Positions 38,298 through 49,058 of a stretch of 64,000 bases of DNA are shown piece after piece. A program made the position numbers and the translations under genes. How positions within the stretch are numbered: the stretch's first letter is position 1; each line of letters begins with the position of its first letter. The stretch is from Pirellulimonas nuda (GTDB lineage: Bacteria > Planctomycetota > Planctomycetia > Pirellulales > Lacipirellulaceae): contig NZ_CP036291.1 of NCBI RefSeq assembly GCF_007750855.1, forward strand, positions 3,472,001 through 3,536,000, read 5' to 3'. The notes under the pieces are model-generated. The model had not been told where the DNA came from. It ran no database searches and worked only from the letters and a program-made list of their open reading frames with translations.

Positions 38298-39053
38298 TTA
38301 CCGCTCCTGGTCGACCCGAGCTCTGCCCCGCCGCCCTCGCACGAGGGCGCCCGTCGCGGCGAGACCGAGCCAGGTAAGGACGCTGTACGGTTCCGGGATG
38401 GCGTGGGCCGTGGAGATCGAAACCTCGTTGGCGACGCCCAGGAACACAAGCTCCGAGAGGGTAATCTCTTCGGTCCCGGCGTTGAACAGATCGATATGCA
38501 GGCTGGTGAACGAGATCGCCTCCTGCGTCAGGTCCAGAGCGATGCCGGAGAACCGAGCAGGATCGTTGGGGTAATCGGCGCTGAATTCGCCGAGCCGCGC
38601 CCCGTCGTCGAACGGCTCAGGGCCCCCCAAGGCGGCAAGCCGCTGGGCGTTCACTACTTGTTCGTTGTCACTGATGTTGGTGCGGTAGCTCCCGGTAGCT
38701 CCGCCGATCTGGACATCGAAGTTGATCTGCGATTGCCCGATGCCTGCGAGTTCCAACAGAATGCCTTCGTTTGGAAGGGTCGAGGCCCCCCCCTCGTCGA
38801 GATGGAGCCGCTGGGCGTTTCCCCCGTCCTGGAAATTGAGCCAAATCTTCAGCGACTCGCCCGGCAGGATTGACTTGTTTAGGACAAAGGTCGGGGACTG
38901 GTACACGCCTAGATAGTCCGTCGCCTGCGAACCTGTCGCGGGGAGTGTGACGAACTGGCCGTCGTTCAGATCGAAATCGATCGTGATCGACGCGTGGCAC
39001 GGGAGAGAACTCGCCAAACACAGAACTAGACCAGCGGCGAAACAGCGGACCAT
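38298..39053 (-). CDS. PEP-CTERM sorting domain protein (251 aa)
   Basis: The start is taken at MVRCFAAGLVLCLASSLPCH (39053), which gives a clean signal peptide; an ATG at 39098 would add 15 residues. The body contains SITIDFDLNDGQFVTLPATG, LKIWLNFQDGGNAQRLHLDE and a beta-rich fold of the type often called choice-of-anchor. The end has IPEPYSVLTWLGLAATGALV and a basic GRRGR tail, which is the sorting signal. Exported and probably surface retained. Confidence 0.82.
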   Translation of the reverse strand: MVRCFAAGLVLCLASSLPCHASITIDFDLNDGQFVTLPATGSQATDYLGVYQSPTFVLNKSILPGESLKIWLNFQDGGNAQRLHLDEGGASTLPNEGILLELAGIGQSQINFDVQIGGATGSYRTNISDNEQVVNAQRLAALGGPEPFDDGARLGEFSADYPNDPARFSGIALDLTQEAISFTSLHIDLFNAGTEEITLSELVFLGVANEVSISTAHAIPEPYSVLTWLGLAATGALVRGRRGRARVDQER

Positions 39054-40409
39054 CGGCGGAATCCCCAAGTTGGAGGCCTTTGAGCTGAGCGTCTCCAACG
39101 CGGCGAACTACGGCATCGTTGCGGGGATTACGCTACCACAGGCGGGGCGCCGCAGTCAAGGGATTTTCTCGGTGTCGTCATGAAAACGAATGAGGAGCGG
39201 AGGTCGAACTACCCCGTCCGCCCTCGACGCTCAACGAGCACGCCCCCTCGATCGCCCCATCGGCTCCCGAGCGGCCCCGCGGCTTGCCCTTCACTACGAT
39301 GTGATCTTCCCTGGTACGTGGGTCGCAACGCGGCTCCATCGCAACCGTACGAATGCCCCTTGAGATGACCGACCCCGATCTGCTCGCAGAGCGTCGCCTG
39401 CTGGACGCCTGCGTGGCCGCCGCGACCAGCAGCAGCGCCGCCGGACTGCGGGAGCCGGCGGCGGGCCGCGTCTACGGCCGGCCAAGCGGGACGCTGCGGT
39501 CGGCGGCCTGGCAGTGGCGGGCGACGCGGCGGGCCCACTCGATGCAACGCGGCCGATCCCAGGGGCGCTCGGCGAACTCTAGGGTCCGCTGCCAAGGGGC
39601 CGAGCCCCAAACCAGGCACGCTAAGCCGCTCGGCGCCAAGCCAACGCGAAGAACTTCCGCTGGCAGGCGTGGCATCGCATCCGAGCCACTAGCAGCAACC
39701 GGAAAACCAGCGAGTCATGCCGGCGGCTCGGATGGACGTCGGTCGAGGTGCAGTGTGGGCATTGCATGGGGCTGGCTCCTACCGGTGTTCATCGGGGGGC
39801 GGCGTCGGCACGGTTGAGCCGCGACCCGCGCGTGCCGCCGGAAGGCGTCCGCCGAAACCCGGTCCTGACGGTCGCAACGAACTTGTTGGGGACGCGCCAG
39901 CTCGGCCGCCCCCCCACAAGCGGGTCCAACCGCCTTCCGGCCCACGCGGGAAGGATTACCACGCCGCACTCTGGGCCACCCGCGCGGCCCGGGACGCACC
40001 GGGGTGGGCGAGGGGTCCTCAGGCCTTGGGAAGAGGTTTGGGCCAGCGGGCCGCGGCCATGGCTGACGGTCGCGCCTGGCGGCCTCCGGGCCGAAGGCGA
40101 GCGGCCCGCGACCGGTGAACGCCTCTTTCCAGCACGGGCGCCGCGGACGGCCGAGCAGTCCGCGGCGCCACCCACGGTTGCTTCCGGGCATCATCCGGGG
40201 GCGGCGCCTTGTTGCAAGCCTTCAACATGCGCCACGACCCCTCCTCAAACCCGCCAATGGCGGCGCGTTCGGGTGTCCGTGGACGCCGCACCCCCGCTCG
40301 ACGCGACGTAGGTTTGCTTTGGCGGGCCGCGCCGTGCCCGCCACGGTCAGCCCCGCTTCTTACTTCAGCATGCGTCGCGTGTCCCCCGGGTCCGCGGCGC
40401 CTCCACTCC
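39054..40409. other. 1.3-kb intergenic region
   Basis: No convincing gene. A short frame at 39365 (MTDPDLLAERRLLDACVAAA) resembles TDPDLIAERRIQD of the 13639-14484 protein over 13 residues, which may be chance. The remainder has only GC-type frames. Confidence 0.4.
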
Positions 40410-43187
40410 ATGGACCGTAATCGCAGCCGCAAGCCGCGCTCTTGCCGGGTCGAATCGCTCGAAGCACGACAGGTGATGTCGGCCGACCCGTTGGTCGACC
40501 TGCTGGCCGGCGCCGTGAACCACCCCGGCGGGCTCGACCTCCCAGCCCTCGCGCAGCCGGCCACGCTCGATGCGCCCCCGATTGTGCTGCCTGCCGAACT
40601 CGACCCCCCGCCGTTGCCGGGGCTCGCGATCGCGGCGGCCGACCCCGGCGGCGCCGCCCTCCCCTCCCAGGCCGCGCTCGCCCAGCAATCGCTCGCCAGC
40701 GCCCACCTGCTGACGGGGCTCGATCAGGTCCGGGCCAACTACGGCTTCGACGGGGGCGGGCAGACCGTCGCGGTGATCGACACCGGCGTCGCGTGGGACC
40801 ACTTCGCCCTGGGGGGGGGCTTCGGTTCGGGCTACCGCGTCGTCGGCGGCTGGGACTTCGCGGAGAACGACGCCAACCCCTACGACGACGGCCCCGCCGG
40901 CTTCCACGGCACCCACGTCTCGGGGGTCATCGGCGCCGACGGCGGCGCAAGCTCCGGGGTGGCCCCGGGCGTCGACCTGGTGGCCCTGCGGGTCTTCAGC
41001 GACACCGGCGCCGGCTACACCAACTGGGTCGAGAGCGCGCTGCAGTGGGTGCACGAGAACCGCAACGCGTTCGAGAACCCGATCACCGCGGTCAACCTCT
41101 CGCTGGGGAACAGCTGGAACGCCGACACGGTCCCCAACTGGGCCGCCCTGGAAGACGAGTTCGCCCAGCTCGAGGCGGACGGCATCTTCATCGCCGTCGC
41201 CGCGGGCAACGACTTCACCAGCTACAACGCCCCCGGGCTCAGCTACCCGGCGGTGAGCCCGTACGTCGTGCCGGTGATGAGCGTCGACGACTCGGGCGCG
41301 CTGAGCTACTTCTCCCAGCGCCACACACGCGCGCTCGCGGCGCCGGGCCGCTTCATCTCCAGCACGGCGCCCGACTACGCCGGCGACAGCAACGGCGTCG
41401 TGGACGACTACAAGACCGCCTCCGGCACGAACATGGCGGCGCCCTACGTGGCCGGCGCCAGCGTGCTGGTGCGCGAGGCGATGGAGTTTGTCGGCACGAC
41501 CGGCGTCACGCAGGACATGATCTACGATCACCTGATGGCGACCGCCGACACGTTGTTCGACTCCGCCACCCAGCAGAGCTACAAGCGGCTGAACCTCGCC
41601 CGGGCGATCGACGCCCTGATGCCGGCCGACGACTACGGATCGAGCGTCGCGACCGCGTACAACCTGGGAACGCTGGGGGGCTCGCTGCAGAGCCAGAGCC
41701 ACCTCGCAATGGATGGGTTGATCGGCAAGCTGGACGACGCGGACTACTTCACCTTCACCGCCGCCGAGACCGGCCGCGTGACCTTCAACGCCACGGGCGG
41801 CACCCACGATTTCGCGGCGAGCTGGGCGGGCTTCGGCGCCACCGGCTGGACCTCCGTCAACGCCGGCGCCGGCTGCGCGATGACCGTCGTCGCGGGCCAG
41901 ACCTACACGGTCGCTCTGAGCTCGTCCGGCGGGCTGGGCTACTACGGCCTCGACGTGGAGTTCGAGAACGCCGTTAACTTCATCGACTGGGGCGCGGTCG
42001 GCGTCCAGCAGACCAAAGCGAACCTGACGATCAACGGCGAGCAGTGGTACCGGATCACCGCCAGCCGGAACGGCTACCTGACGGTCGACGCGGTGGCCGG
42101 CGGCCAGAACATCTCGCTCGACCTCTACAACGCGAGCATGAAGCTCGTCCGGCAAGGGGGCGCAACCGACCGCGCCGACGTGCTGACCACCGCCGGGACC
42201 CAGTACTATGTGCGTGTGACCGGCACGGCGAGCGGCGTGGCCCTGCGGCTCACCAACGCCGTGGCCATCTCGGGCGACACGGTCCACGTCGTGGGGACCG
42301 AGGGGAACGACGCGATCGCGTTCAGCACCGGCACGGGCGGTTTCTACCACGGGCTCTCGGTCAACGGGCTCGTCTTTGCGTTCGACACGTCGGTCTACAA
42401 GAACCTGGCGGTCAGCGGCGCCGGGGGCACAGACTCTTTCGTCTTGCACGGCACGGCGCAGAAGGAGACGGTCCTGCTGGGGGTCAACAGCATCAGCCTG
42501 ACCGGCCCCGGGTACGTGCTGGTGGGGAGCAGCTTCGAGAACATCGTCGTGGTCGGCATGGGGGGGGACGACGCCGCGTACATGTACGGCTCCGCCGGCG
42601 CGGACACCTACCGCACCTACGGGGACCGGGTCGTCATGTCGGGCGCCGGGTACAACAACCGCGCCGAAGGTTTCGCCAACACCTACGGGTTCGCCAACAG
42701 CCTGATCGACGTGGCGTACATGTACGGGTCCGCCGGCGCGGACACCTACCGCACCTACGCGGACCGGGTCATCATGTCCGGGCCGGGCTACGCCAACCGC
42801 GCCTACTCGTTTGTGGCCACGCACGGGTTCGCGGACAGCACCAGCGACACGGCGCTGATGTACGACTCGGCCGGCAGCGACTTCTACCGCGCCTACAGCG
42901 ACCGCGCGATCATGTCGGGCACGCTGTACAACAACCGCGCCACCGGCTTCGCGCGCGTGACCGGCTACGCGTCGACGGGGTATGACCAGGCCTATCTGCA
43001 CGACTCCGCCGGCAACGACCTGGGGACGGTCCGCAGCTGGGGGGGCGCCATCGACCACGCCTCCGGCGGACACATCGAGGCGAGGGGCTTCGACCTGATG
43101 CTGCTGTACGGCCTTGAAGGGGGGACGAACACCCTGGACCTGGAGGCGGTCGACTACGTGTTCGCCCAGATCGGCCTGTGGGGCTAG
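40410..43187 (+). CDS. S8 subtilase-like surface protein, catalytic Ser replaced (925 aa)
   Basis: The start at MDRNRSRKPRSCRVESLEAR (40410) opens an LEPR-XLL-like N-terminus (VESLEARQVMSAD). The subtilisin fold covers about residues 100-380: Asp124 in VAVIDTGVAW, His166 in FHGTHVSGVIG, the oxyanion Asn in VAVAAGNDF. The catalytic Ser motif, normally GTSMAxP, reads ASGTNMAAPYVAG, with AAC at 41430-41432 giving Asn341. It should therefore bind but not cleave in the classical way. A PPC-like beta domain (ADYFTFTAAETGRVTF) follows, then four C-terminal repeats of about 45 residues (GSAGADTYRTYxDRVxMSG). No PEP-CTERM. Confidence 0.87.
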   Translation: MDRNRSRKPRSCRVESLEARQVMSADPLVDLLAGAVNHPGGLDLPALAQPATLDAPPIVLPAELDPPPLPGLAIAAADPGGAALPSQAALAQQSLASAHLLTGLDQVRANYGFDGGGQTVAVIDTGVAWDHFALGGGFGSGYRVVGGWDFAENDANPYDDGPAGFHGTHVSGVIGADGGASSGVAPGVDLVALRVFSDTGAGYTNWVESALQWVHENRNAFENPITAVNLSLGNSWNADTVPNWAALEDEFAQLEADGIFIAVAAGNDFTSYNAPGLSYPAVSPYVVPVMSVDDSGALSYFSQRHTRALAAPGRFISSTAPDYAGDSNGVVDDYKTASGTNMAAPYVAGASVLVREAMEFVGTTGVTQDMIYDHLMATADTLFDSATQQSYKRLNLARAIDALMPADDYGSSVATAYNLGTLGGSLQSQSHLAMDGLIGKLDDADYFTFTAAETGRVTFNATGGTHDFAASWAGFGATGWTSVNAGAGCAMTVVAGQTYTVALSSSGGLGYYGLDVEFENAVNFIDWGAVGVQQTKANLTINGEQWYRITASRNGYLTVDAVAGGQNISLDLYNASMKLVRQGGATDRADVLTTAGTQYYVRVTGTASGVALRLTNAVAISGDTVHVVGTEGNDAIAFSTGTGGFYHGLSVNGLVFAFDTSVYKNLAVSGAGGTDSFVLHGTAQKETVLLGVNSISLTGPGYVLVGSSFENIVVVGMGGDDAAYMYGSAGADTYRTYGDRVVMSGAGYNNRAEGFANTYGFANSLIDVAYMYGSAGADTYRTYADRVIMSGPGYANRAYSFVATHGFADSTSDTALMYDSAGSDFYRAYSDRAIMSGTLYNNRATGFARVTGYASTGYDQAYLHDSAGNDLGTVRSWGGAIDHASGGHIEARGFDLMLLYGLEGGTNTLDLEAVDYVFAQIGLWG

Positions 43188-44047
43188 CATTCCGCCGGGG
43201 CGCCCTGCCGAGCGTTGGAGGCGCCGGCGCCGCTCGTCGCGAGCGCGTCCCCGAAAGCAGAAGCACCAGCAACGAATCGTGCCGATCAAGAGGGACTCGT
43301 ATCGGGACTGCCCTGGCGCCAAACTGTTAGAGAGTTTCCTCCTGGACCAACGCAGCCTCCCGGAACTCCCTGCAGCGTCCAAGGATCTTTCTCCACTTAC
43401 CGCATCACGGGCTGCATCGTGGAGCTTCCGATCCACTGGCTCTGCGGAGTGACGACTCCTCGGCTTCTCCGACACCCCGTGCCTCCATCCGCCGCCTCGC
43501 GGGCCGCTGGGACTCTCGCATCCCAGGGATCAGCTGCCGGAGAGCCGCTCCGGCAGGCAAGAGAGGCCCGAATGCAGAGCATCGATCCGGGCGAAGATCG
43601 CCCGCGGTTCCAAGAGGACTTCCTTACCACGGGCGGCAACGCCGCTGACGAGCACCGGACCAAGCAGTGAACGGCGCCCGGGCTCTTGGGGATGTTCGCC
43701 AGGCCCCGCGAACAGGGAGACGGACTCCCATCAGTGGCCGACATTCTCCACATCCTAGCTGAGCGGGCAGACTGCCTGCGGCCTTCGGCGCCAACTGATG
43801 GGTTGACGCCGCGTCGGTCGCGTACAGGCGACTAGCCCTAACGCAGGCCAGAACGGCGGCGATCCGCGTTTTTGAGGGAAGTTTCGATCCTCCATCGGTC
43901 GCTCCTCTTGCGGACTACCGTCAGATGCCGAGCGTGTCTTCTAGCGGAAATCTCTGCGGCGACGCTTGACCCCGCCCGCTGTCTTGCTGATAATCTCCAT
44001 CCAATCTGTAACTTTTCTCACTTTTCAGTCGTCCCAAGAGGTAGAGC
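43188..44047. other. 860-bp intergenic region
   Basis: No supported gene. The final 60 bp hold the leader of the next PEP-CTERM gene with AAGAGGTAGAGC before its ATG. Confidence 0.4.
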
Positions 44048-44758
44048 ATGAGTATTCGCTTTGGCGCCGGTGTACTAATCGCCACGCTGTTGTCCACCGC
44101 TCCGGCGTGGGCCAGTGTCACGATTGACGCCTACGAGTTTGATCTCACTCAGTTCGATGGGGCGGCCGTTACCTACCGGTCAGATGGTGGTGTAACCTTC
44201 GACGGGAAGCTGTGGGACAACCACGTCGGCGTCGATGGCGTCACGACGGGCGAACTGGCCTCCGGCCAGTTCGGTGGCGATCCCGGCGATCAGCTCTCAC
44301 TCAACAGCAGGGGAGCGGCTGGGCCAGACTGGTTCCAGCTGGACTACGCCGGCGCCGGGCTCACGATCGGCGGTTCGGACAGGGACACCTTCGTGGTCTA
44401 CGAGATCACCAGCTCGAGTGCAGGCGTTGATACCGAGGGCACAAGCTGGCGCATCAGCTTCAACGGCGGCGCCTTCATCGACGCCAGTTCGGGTGTAGCG
44501 AAATTCCTTCAGTTCACCCCCGCGGCCGAGAACGTGAATCAGATTGCGTTCGACCTGACCTCGTTCGGATTCACCGCCGGCGACCTGCTTAAGAGCGTGC
44601 GGTTCGAGAACAAGGACACCGGATCCAGCACGTCCGATCCAGATTTTATCTTCACCGCTCTAGAGGGTTCTGTGGCGCCCGTGCCCGAAGCCACGAGCAT
44701 TATTGCCTGGGGCGGGCTGCTAGGCGCCGTTGGGCTGATCCTACGCAAGAAGCGCTAA
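44048..44758 (+). CDS. PEP-CTERM-like protein with VPEA variant (236 aa)
   Basis: It starts MSIRFGAGVLIATLLSTAPA, a short signal peptide cleaved near AWA. The mature part is a beta-rich domain (FDGKLWDNHVGVDGVTTGEL; LSLNSRGAAGPDWFQLDYAG). The sorting signal is APVPEATSIIAWGGLLGAVG followed by LILRKKR, with Pro replaced by Ala after PE, a variant also seen in two other genes of this window. The ribosome-binding site AAGAGG precedes the ATG. A strong terminator follows at 44785. Confidence 0.82.
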   Translation: MSIRFGAGVLIATLLSTAPAWASVTIDAYEFDLTQFDGAAVTYRSDGGVTFDGKLWDNHVGVDGVTTGELASGQFGGDPGDQLSLNSRGAAGPDWFQLDYAGAGLTIGGSDRDTFVVYEITSSSAGVDTEGTSWRISFNGGAFIDASSGVAKFLQFTPAAENVNQIAFDLTSFGFTAGDLLKSVRFENKDTGSSTSDPDFIFTALEGSVAPVPEATSIIAWGGLLGAVGLILRKKR

Positions 44759-44820: not shown

Positions 44821-45089
44821 GTTGCTCCCGCCGTGGACTTAGCTTTGGCTCCGTGGCCGCGTCCGGGCAGGCGTGGTCGGGGCAATTCACTGCTGCACCA
44901 GGCTGGACCTTTCGGGCGTCCTCCGGGCACCGGTCGGCCGGGGCTGTACCCGACAAGCGATTCAGGCGGCTGGCGCACTCCGCGCGCCAACCAGAGGGCA
45001 AACTGCCGCAGCTTCACGGAGCGTTGAACACAACCTCCGGCCGACCGGACCAACCGGCTGTAGGCGCCGGCAACGGCACGCGGGGACAA

Positions 45090-45534
45090 CGAGGGGGTCG
45101 TCGCGACCCCCAACTACATCAAGAAGACGGGCGCGGCTTTTGTCCGCCGGGCCGAGGGGTTCGCCAAATTCTCGAACAATTCGGGCGGCGGGGTCGATTC
45201 GATCGACTTCTGCGACTCCGCCGGGGTCGACATCTTTAACGCACGCCGGTCGTCGGCCCACATGTCGGGCGCGGGGTGCCTGAACGTCGCAACGGACTTC
45301 GCACGGGTGCGGGCGTTTAGCGACCTGGGGAGCGACCTCGCAGTGCTGAACGACTGGGCCGGCGCCGACGCGCTCGAGGTCGGCGGCAGCGTCGCGTCGC
45401 TGACCTGCCCGGGGGGCACGATTGAAACCCAGCGGTCCGGCAAGGTCGTCGCCTACGGCCTCAGCGGGGGACAAGACACCGCGCTGCTCACCGCCTACGA
45501 CGGAGTCTTCCAGCTGCTTGGCGACTGGGCCTAG
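45090..45534 (+). pseudogene. C-terminal remnant of a subtilase-like surface protein paralogue
   Basis: The frame reads YIKKTGAAFVRRAEGFAKFS, VDSIDFCDSAGVDIFNARRS and HMSGAGCLNVATDFARVRAF, then ends FQLLGDWA. It matches the C-terminal repeat region of the 40410-43187 protein (RAEGFAN, YMYGSAGADTYRTY, MSGAGYNNRA, YVFAQIGLWG). No N-terminal domain is present, and no start with a ribosome-binding site. It is a partial duplicate left about 2 kb downstream of the intact gene. Confidence 0.75.
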
Positions 45535-45928: not shown

Positions 45929-46552
45929 CTAAGCAGTCGCCGAACAAGTCGAGCGGCCTTTGCGGTACACGGCACCCGCGACCCCGACGAACATCAGCGA
46001 CCAAAACGCGAGCGTCGACGCTTCGGGAACAGGAGCAGAGTCGCCCGTCCAGAAAGAGACGTGAGAAATGTCCGTTTTCGTCGTGTCGTCGCGGGTGAGA
46101 AGATTTAATCCGTCCTCCAGGACGTATAGGGAGAACCCCTTTCCTGCCTTGACGCTGTAGTAGGTGACCGACTCAGGACCGGTGTACTTGAAGTACGCCG
46201 TCTCGAGACTTGTCAGGGCCGCCTCCGTGGTGACCGCCATAGTTCCGGCCATGTCCGAGAAGAACATAAAACCGTTGGCCATATTGAACACAAACGCTGA
46301 GTCTACGTCCGTTTTCTTGAACAGCGTATCGGGCTTGATCAGATCAGGGTCTTTGGCAGCGTTGTAAGCGTCGATTACGGCTTCGATGTCCGACAACTTG
46401 TCTTGAGAGTTATCGTCATCGGTGCCCACGAGGGGCAGGGTGCCCACCAGGATCGACGCCTCCGACTGCATGCCGGTCAAAGCGACCAGCGCAAGTGTCA
46501 TCAATAGCAGCCCGCTACGGCGCCTGAGTCTTTCTGCGAGTGAGTGTGACAT
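45929..46552 (-). CDS. PEP-CTERM-like protein with VPEA variant (207 aa)
   Basis: The start MSHSLAERLRRRSGLLLMTL (46552) follows the strong site GGGAGGATTCGAAA, so the upstream Met is rejected. A signal peptide ends near SEA. The mature domain has DDDNSQDKLSDIEAVIDAYN and the segment ESVTYYSVKAGKGFSLYVLE, seen in several exported planctomycete proteins. The end is APVPEASTLAFWSLMFVGVA then a basic KGRS tail, a VPEA-type sorting signal. A terminator is not obvious. Confidence 0.8.
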   Translation of the reverse strand: MSHSLAERLRRRSGLLLMTLALVALTGMQSEASILVGTLPLVGTDDDNSQDKLSDIEAVIDAYNAAKDPDLIKPDTLFKKTDVDSAFVFNMANGFMFFSDMAGTMAVTTEAALTSLETAYFKYTGPESVTYYSVKAGKGFSLYVLEDGLNLLTRDDTTKTDISHVSFWTGDSAPVPEASTLAFWSLMFVGVAGAVYRKGRSTCSATA

Positions 46553-46962
46553 TTTCGAATCCTCCCATCCAGGAACGCGCGGCAGCCCAAGATCGATCAC
46601 GACAACGTGATAGACATTTTCGGCGGCCTACCGCAAACTACAAGCAACGACGGTTATCCGAAGCAAGCGGTTGGGGGCATTTTTCTTGAAGTTTGTCGAG
46701 CCCAGGAACCTGGCCCCGCCAAACGCCGATGTTTCCCGTTTGTTCTCGGTCACGGGTTCTTCTCAACGGGGGATTGCGGGTGGCCCCCGACGCGGCTTTC
46801 CCGGCCGCCTCGGTCCGATTCGATGGACGTAGGCCTCGCCCGTGCCCGGCGGTACCGGCGGCGAGTCTTCGCAAGGAGGTGCGCGTCGCGCTTTGCGGCG
46901 AGCTCGCAAGACCGCGCGACACGCCCGTCCCTCCCGATCTGGCCCACCCCCGAGGCTTTGGC
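46553..46962. other. Intergenic
   Basis: No supported gene. Confidence 0.4.
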
Positions 46963-47457: not shown

Positions 47458-48152
47458 GGCGTCGGAACCCGAGCGAGACGCGTCGGTAGAACGGTGCGCT
47501 GGTGTGGGCCAGCCGGTCCGCCAACGCTACCTCCGGCGTCCGGCAATTCATCATACTGCCCGGATGGCGTCACTAATTCGTCAGTCTAGATAGTAACCCT
47601 CGCTAGACAACTCATTCCAGCCGCAGCGGCTTGCGGCTGGCCCGGCGGTGGCGGCGAGGACGAGGTCCCCACCTCCCTGGTGACCCCCGCGAGACCGCGG
47701 TCAGCACAGCCCGAGGTCGGCCCGCTGCCGTCGACAGAACTGCTCGAGCCGGCAAGAACGGCCAAGTTTCCCGCTCCGGCGGCTCTCTTCTTGCAAACTG
47801 CTTGAACCTTCAGGTAGCCGCAATTATCCTCAAGGCACGGCTTGGGCTGTGGAGAGGCGGCCGGTCGGCGAACAACGCGCCGCCGTGCGTCCCGATCCTT
47901 TAGCTCAGGCGATGCCGCGGTCTCGCGACTATCGCCGTGCCGCCGGCCCGATCTGGGAGGGGGGGCCGGCGGCGAGCGGCGTGGCTCGTTTCCAAGACAA
48001 CTTCCGTTGGTGGCGCCGGACGCTCGAACAAGCAGCGTTCGTCGACACCCACGCCAACCCGTCGTCGAGCTGGCCTAGTGCGTCTGGCTGGGCGGCCGGC
48101 CCCCCCCAAACCGCCCCGCGTCCTGCCTCCGAGCGACGAACCCAAGAATTCC
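47458..48152. other. Intergenic
   Basis: About 700 bp without a supported gene. It ends in the leader of the PEP-CTERM gene at 48153. Confidence 0.4.
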
Positions 48153-49058
48153 ATGACGCAGCATCACCGACCGAGCGCCGCACCGACTCCGCCGGGTCGC
48201 CCCCAAACCACCCCCAACGCCCCCCGGCTCGCCTCCAAACGGGCGGTCTACTCGATCGCCGCCGGCGCCGCGGTCGGCGTCGTGCCGCCGCCGGCGGACG
48301 GGGCGGTCGTCTACTCGGGCGTGCAGGACCTCAGCATCGGCCAGGGGCTGGCGCAAGACCTCGACATCAACAGCGACGCCGTAACGGACATCTTGCTGAA
48401 GAACTACGTCTTCTTCGGCGGCAACTACCAGGGGGCGAGCGTCAACGGCTACCCGGGCAAGCTCGTCGGGTTTGAGGGCGCGCTCGCCTATGCATCGGCG
48501 CTGGCCAGCGGCAGCCTGGTCGACGCCACGACGGTCGGCCCCGCGTTCTTTGGGTCGATGGCCTACGGCGCCGCCAACCCAAGCGCCGAGTTCAATGACG
48601 TCAGCGGCGTCTTCCTCGGACTCAGCTTCCCGATCGGGGGCAACGAGCCAGAGTTTCTGCACTACGGCTGGGTCCGGGTCTCGGTCAATAACGCCAATGG
48701 CACGTTCGTTATCAACGATTGGGCCTACCAAGACGCCGCTAACACGGGGATCCTCACCGGCGAAACCGGTCCGCTCGGCGTCCCGGGCGACTTCAACGAG
48801 GACGGCGCCGTCGACGCGGCCGACTACACGGTCTGGCGCGACAATCTGGGGGTCGAGACCAGCCTGCCGAACGGCGTCGACACCGGCGGCCCCGTGGGCC
48901 AGGCGGACTACGACTTGTGGGTTGCCGGCTTCGGCGGGCCTGCCCCGGCCGCGGCCTCGGCCGGCGCCGCGGTCCCCGAACCCTCGACGCTTGGCCTGCT
49001 CGCGGCGGGATGCCTCGGAGTAGCCGCGCTCCGACGCAGGCAGAAGCGCGAGGACTGA
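48153..49058 (+). CDS. PEP-CTERM protein with dockerin, paralogue 1 (301 aa)
   Basis: The start MTQHHRPSAAPTPPGRPQTT (48153) is used; upstream frame is not coding-like. A short export signal RAVYSIAAGAAVGVVPPPAD precedes the mature start at GAVVYSG. Next is a 160-residue domain shared with the 52547 and 53329 genes (VQDLSIGQGLAQDLDIN, ILLKNYVFFGGNYQGASVNG, FLGLSFPIGG, HYGWVRVSVNN). Then come a dockerin type I pair (FNEDGAVDAADYTVWRDNLG; GPVGQADYDLWVAGFG) and the sorting signal VPEPSTLGLLAAGCLGVAAL with a basic tail. Probably surface exported; the domain's function is unknown. Confidence 0.85.
   Translation: MTQHHRPSAAPTPPGRPQTTPNAPRLASKRAVYSIAAGAAVGVVPPPADGAVVYSGVQDLSIGQGLAQDLDINSDAVTDILLKNYVFFGGNYQGASVNGYPGKLVGFEGALAYASALASGSLVDATTVGPAFFGSMAYGAANPSAEFNDVSGVFLGLSFPIGGNEPEFLHYGWVRVSVNNANGTFVINDWAYQDAANTGILTGETGPLGVPGDFNEDGAVDAADYTVWRDNLGVETSLPNGVDTGGPVGQADYDLWVAGFGGPAPAAASAGAAVPEPSTLGLLAAGCLGVAALRRRQKRED

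Follow-up and report, generated by a model that had tools for sequence, protein, structure and literature searches.

Here, we describe a subtilase-homologue gene whose nucleophile codon is replaced, located at 40410-43187 (+) of the window (the whole 64,000-nucleotide stretch that was analysed, from Pirellulimonas nuda). The open frame encodes 925 residues with no internal stop (ORF translation), and codon 341, where subtilases carry the nucleophilic Ser, reads AAC (Asn341; context SGTNMAAPYVAGAS). The features of the locus are as follows.

40410-43187 (+): subtilase-homologue gene with replaced nucleophile; 925 amino acids plus stop; PF00082 at 120.6 bits; model pLDDT 85.1
40302-43181 (+): duplicated block comprising the coding region and some 108 bases in front of it; blastn identity 78.2% to the paralogue stretch of G000:C1, this genome (locus L117, 5680-8570)
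40722-41624 (+): catalytic (subtilisin-fold) domain, residues 105-405 as used in the constraint tests; from profile, alignment and model
40446-40490 (+): weak resemblance to Planc_extracel at residues 13-27, which may mark an export signal; PF07595 at 16.2 bits, cut-off 25.5
40779-40781 (+): codon of Asp124, the catalytic Asp, kept; Asp in 108 of 108 aligned rows
40905-40907 (+): codon of His166, the catalytic His, kept; His in 107 of 108 rows, the exception being L121 of genome G027
41208-41210 (+): codon of Asn267, the oxyanion-hole Asn, kept; Asn in 108 of 108 rows
41430-41432 (+): codon AAC, giving Asn341 instead of the nucleophile Ser; the paralogue and the five codon-alignment outgroups read AGC
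42243-43184 (+): C-terminal beta-solenoid, residues 612-925; model pLDDT 93.1, pTM 0.89

The initial annotation had reported the change from Ser to Asn341, with Asp124, His166 and the oxyanion Asn retained, and this is confirmed by the codon, by the profile and by alignment with the structure file of nattokinase 3vyv, in which Asn341 pairs with the Ser of GTSMATP, which we take to be subtilisin number 221. Thr340, beside Asn341, is also retained. Pfam PF00082 matches residues 115-389 (protein score 120.6 bits, cut-off 21.8), with profile positions 1-283 covered by one 275-residue stretch. The annotation's further statement that the fold motifs are otherwise well kept also holds, as 1 of 71 near-invariant positions of the catalytic domain is broken, namely the Ser. 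The PF00082 score and the fold place the protein among S8 homologues, and it has the Asp and His of active S8 peptidases and lacks the nucleophile Ser in GTSMAxP; judged from its sequence, it is an S8 homologue by profile and fold and not an S8 serine peptidase by the defining residue. The NCBIfam names mycosin and dentilisin were rejected for scores under their cut-offs (type VII secretion mycosin TIGR03921, 115.2 bits versus 278.75). An antisense open frame of 1036 amino acids at 40365-43475 (-) spans the whole gene, and is most likely a by-product of high G+C content rather than a gene.

The full-length predicted model (mean pLDDT 85.1, pTM 0.56) is laid out as a subtilisin domain, then all-beta stretches and then a C-terminal beta-solenoid. 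The predicted fold of the subtilisin domain is retained: the model's domain aligns with 9ues_B (Z 38.4, rmsd 2.3, 286 aligned; predicted model only) and with Clostridium CspB 4i0w (Z 36.0, rmsd 2.7, 294 aligned). Residues 1-92 are modelled with pLDDT below 50, and inhibitor I9 is not among the protein's Pfam matches. The match to the Planctomycete extracellular signal PF07595 stays below its cut-off (16.2 < 25.5 bits), and the protein is probably secreted. Within the solenoid region, a repeat of 138 bases (46 residues) occurs in 2.7 copies at 42569-42941. A Foldseek search of the solenoid against the PDB gave no match at E 0.001 or better, and its best VIA match is an RTX domain (Z 7.5), a resemblance that may be just a common arrangement. 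The C-terminal solenoid part also has matches elsewhere in the order, in open frames that are much longer.

Homologues were aligned at the nucleophile place, the check that the initial annotation had proposed for a family-wide Asn. Among 166 distinct homologous catalytic cores (reduced from 183 rows), Ser is found in 164, Asn in one (the window gene) and His in one, with no Cys or Thr; after 97% clustering, Ser is found in 150 of 152. The protein alignment of 108 de-duplicated rows, consisting of the window protein and 107 others left from 119 frames after removal of identical cores and five repeats of the window gene or its paralogue, contains 106 Ser, one Asn (window) and one His (L121). Additional copies fetched from the order carry Ser in 75 of 75, some of these being genes already counted in other rows, and in one of them (row L201) the Asp and His are unreadable owing to a run of N. 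A truncated copy in genome G034, with Arg at this place, lies outside the 166 cores as it is without the Asp and His.

At the DNA level, a pattern for GTNMA(A/S/T)P occurs at six places in 296 genomes of the order, where the window gene is the sole subtilase by reading frame; the five other places were rejected as non-subtilases, judged by their frames. The motif with a codon beginning with G or C at the Ser place (next four residues constrained) was present only once in these 296 genomes, and the reading frame concerned has none of the other subtilase motifs; these order-wide scans covered Asn codons and codons beginning with G or C. A pattern of Ser plus neighbouring codons occurs at 60 places in 43 family genomes, nine with another residue at the Ser place, and only one of those nine is a homologue, the truncated G034 place (GTR); the remaining eight lie in frames without subtilase motifs. 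A family-wide Asn is thus ruled out by Ser in 164 of the 166 cores, and the substitution is a single-lineage change.

The genome has seven PF00082 places. The closest paralogue, G000:C1:878789-881569, is 76% identical over its full length, has the same Pfam domain and carries GTSMAAP. Another of the seven, G000:C1:3541212-3542015 (-), is in a 3105-aa frame about 5 kb past the window end and is the genome's best S8 match. At the nucleophile codon, the five outgroups of the codon alignment share AGC with the paralogue, so that Asn requires no more than one G-to-A transition. The window protein and the paralogue come out as sisters in the 106-row tree (SH-aLRT 100%), on branches of 0.14 and 0.053 changes per column, respectively. 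DNA similarity between the two loci extends from 40302 to 43181, so that about 108 upstream bases were copied along with the coding region.

The paralogue's locus is conserved: genes for an amidohydrolase and a glycosyltransferase flank it, and its neighbours (MiaE, short-chain dehydrogenase, amidohydrolase, glycosyltransferase) have relatives adjoining other genomes' copies. Flanking genes are common to the paralogue and 18 other copies, versus none for the window copy. As the window copy lacks shared neighbours despite having the longest examined flanks among 34 copies (10.1 and 11.8 kb), it is the copy that moved. Around it, 47937-49058 (+) encodes a protein with a PEP-CTERM motif (26.9 bits), and the tails of ORFs 38298-39098 (-), 44048-44758 (+) and 45929-46600 (-) resemble, by eye, the tail of that protein, which suggests surroundings of probable exported proteins. 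An orphan 156-aa frame at 45064-45531 (+), 1.9 kb downstream, is 56% identical to residues 1079-1225 of a frame in genome G015 and 36% to the window protein; it resembles the C-terminal piece of a family member and, being closer to the G015 frame, appears to be what is left of a different copy or of a tail since lost.

Neighbour sharing, defined as BLASTP E 1e-25 or better on the same side and in the same orientation, was scored for all 34 copies. Excluded were the contig-end fragments in G008, G032 and G036, the own-genome copy G000:C1:2404653-2405543 (53% identity in the catalytic domain only; Ser) and weaker family-genome matches of 38% or less; some flanks were short (G038, 2 bases downstream; G033, 1.6 kb on one side; G031, 2.6 and 3.7 kb; G001, 4.0 kb on one side). 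Three copies share no flanking gene, namely those of the window and G027 and the truncated one of G034, and all three are without Ser: Asn in the window, His (plus a His-to-Gln change) in G027 and Arg in G034. The remaining 31 of 34 copies each have Ser and at least one neighbour partner, G002 just one. An exact match of the three non-Ser copies with the three non-conserved loci would arise by random picking of three from 34 with a probability of 1/5984. The idea arose from the first 22 copies; each of the 12 included afterwards agrees with it, but these are without exception Ser copies with partners.

The G027 copy (L121, G027:C1:3027006-3029384 (-)) reads GTHLATP, with His changed to Gln, Ser to His and the Met beside it to Leu, in a 1452-aa frame, and the second copy of that genome (L129) has Ser. 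L121 has 41 private changes, of which four are at the 71 near-invariant sites (p 0.015). Three of these four concern catalytic residues or the position beside the Ser; among the other 38 private changes, one is on a near-invariant site. Genome G034 has two Ser copies plus a third (L138 and L159; G034:C1:3974843-3976144) that reads GTRMASP, has sequence from residue 326 only and is 71.7% identical to its sibling copy. In the tree, the window and G027 losses fall in different clades and require two changes, which the starred branches force too. Because the three non-Ser copies are the three without conserved neighbours, dispersed duplicates have lost the nucleophile three times. The initial annotation would have given up its reading if homologues had Ser and the change were a lone sequencing or point mutation; homologues do have Ser, but calling the change a lone mutation would say too little, as the gene is a duplicate that has moved and, in related genomes, two further moved duplicates have each lost this residue independently.

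We propose, with about an even chance of being right, that the window protein is a functional pseudoprotease, non-cleaving and derived by relocated duplication. In this scenario, the subtilase gene and about 108 bases of upstream DNA would have been copied from the ancestral locus to an unrelated place in the genome, with the ancestral copy G000:C1:878789-881569 keeping the triad Asp, His and Ser, and one G-to-A transition in the moved copy would have turned the nucleophile Ser into Asn. The acyl-enzyme intermediate of subtilisins requires the Ser hydroxyl. Asn would be unable to form it, and so the window protein should not cleave peptides; this expected lack of activity follows from known subtilisin chemistry. 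The protein retains its predicted fold, the oxyanion Asn, the conserved motifs of the cleft and the C-terminal beta-solenoid, and so most likely persists as a non-cleaving binder of the active copy's ligands. Given the retained cleft motifs and solenoid, the simplest role would be to bind the ligands of the active sister uncut, at the surface or outside the cell, most likely as a decoy, regulator or adhesin. The annotation's view that the loss is tolerated or selected is borne out as to tolerance, the frame having stayed open; selection, and with it any benefit of the Ser loss, is conceivable, as are the binding role and the cell-surface location that it suggested, for which the sole surface hint is the sub-threshold Planc_extracel match.

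The strongest rival, which we regard as quite possible though not as the better bet, is an incipient pseudogene, i.e., a redundant moved copy that recently lost its nucleophile by neutral change and is decaying without a function of its own. In its favour, Asn is one transition away from Ser, and the truncation of the moved G034 copy, which is without everything before residue 326, shows that moved copies can simply decay. The catalytic domain of the window copy has also evolved faster, with 33 changes on the window branch versus 18 on the paralogue branch (p 0.049); the corresponding counts are 60 versus 54 in the middle and C-terminal parts and 22 versus 11 in the N-terminal part (p 0.08), and the contrast between the catalytic and the middle plus C-terminal parts is not significant alone (p 0.18). 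A three-ratio model gives the catalytic domain an omega of 0.28 on the window branch versus 0.012 on the paralogue branch (p 0.0018), and omega = 1 is not rejected there for the window branch (p 0.60). Setting the window branch against all remaining branches in the plainer two-ratio test gives no significant difference (p 0.08 for the catalytic and 0.30 for the middle domain), and in the middle domain the omegas of the two sisters do not differ (p 0.38). Two caveats apply to these rate tests: towards the outgroups, synonymous change is almost saturated, and the partition between the two sister branches seems unstable, with t 0.21 and 0.79 in one domain but 0.96 and 0.40 in the other.

Against decay, all 925 codons are free of stops, whereas a neutral divergence of 0.1 to 0.35 would predict about 6.5 to 23 of them. 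The sequence is also constrained: 32 of the 33 catalytic-domain changes on the window branch lie off the 71 near-invariant sites, the exception being the Ser (hypergeometric p 0.001), and a second polarisation places 1 of 29 on them (p 0.003). NG86 comparison with the paralogue gives dN 0.149 and dS 0.708 overall (ratio about 0.21), and dN 0.099 and dS 0.696 in the catalytic domain (ratio about 0.14). For the middle domain, omega = 1 is rejected on the window branch (p 0.0024). The G027 copy, moreover, keeps its long frame of 1452 residues despite two changed catalytic residues, versus the truncation seen in G034. The constraint is not datable relative to the Ser loss and may have acted while the enzyme was active, and the evidence on decay of the window gene is mixed.

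A sequencing or assembly error at this one base, in a gene that is otherwise active, is very unlikely. Only one base is concerned, and the window assembly is the sole assembly of its genus in the search; however, the window copy is one of 3 of 34 without conserved neighbours and both others are also without Ser, the moved copy is faster elsewhere in the catalytic domain, and the context contains, by eye, no common methylation motif. No more credit can be given to a still active peptidase that uses another nucleophile or Asn self-cleavage. Asp, His, Thr340 and the oxyanion Asn are retained, and in asparagine peptide lyases self-cleavage can be driven by the side chain of an Asn; however, the conserved nucleophile of the 166 cores is Ser in 164, with Cys or Thr in none, and engineered S221A subtilisin served as an inactive control (PMC7935941). 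A pseudoenzyme group with Asn as its family-wide rule is already refuted within the genomes searched, where the window gene is the only GTNMAxP subtilase, and has next to no chance of being correct.

Returning to the functional pseudoprotease, the pattern across genomes may extend beyond this gene. We suggest tentatively, and rather doubt, that dispersed duplicates repeatedly become pseudoproteases off the conserved locus, and that the long ones stay on without cleaving, as partners, decoys or inhibitors of the active ancestral-locus copy. If this reading of repeated conversion is true, these genomes hold a natural repeated experiment in pseudoprotease making. One genome offers an intact-triad enzyme and a near-intact dead sister at 76% identity, one base apart at the decisive codon, and a related genome (G027) offers a second long case. 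It can be asked directly whether pseudoproteases begin by losing the nucleophile while keeping the fold, and whether departure from the ancestral neighbourhood allows that loss.

Among the matches listed in the literature searched (titles and the starts of abstracts), no planctomycete subtilase pseudoprotease was found, and the bacterial subtilase pseudoproteases met there are the Csp proteins. Planctomycete members of the family with an unbroken triad offer one comparison, for instance the own-genome paralogue (76% identity, same Pfam domain), from which the window protein differs by the Ser and by the paralogue's conserved locus. Engineered subtilisin Ser221 variants (S221A; selenosubtilisins 1sel and 1ubn) have the same residue replaced and the fold kept, and are laboratory designs. 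PIMMS2 of Plasmodium berghei, a subtilisin-like protein with a signal peptide, is called a potential pseudoenzyme by its authors, and in this description, that of a putative subtilisin-like pseudoenzyme, resembles the window protein (PMC5520436). PIMMS2 is from a eukaryote and keeps all three triad residues, and its HGT and GTS motifs are absent (PMC5520436). CspC of Clostridioides difficile has D105, T170 and G485 at the triad places, and CspA and CspC, subtilase pseudoproteases that act in spore germination, share with the window protein a subtilisin fold with lost catalytic residues and an active paralogue (CspB) alongside (PMC6636752). The Csp proteins carry a prodomain as well as a jelly-roll insertion, and two triad residues are changed in CspA and CspC, whereas the window protein has lost the Ser alone, has a beta-solenoid after the subtilase domain and belongs to a different phylum; that domain shows no jelly-roll insertion, given the unbroken PF00082 match and a model secondary structure without an inserted beta domain. 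If functional, the window protein would work like CspA and CspC, yet is not one of them, and pseudoenzyme roles of such kinds are discussed by authors of work on the Csp proteins (PMC12880746).
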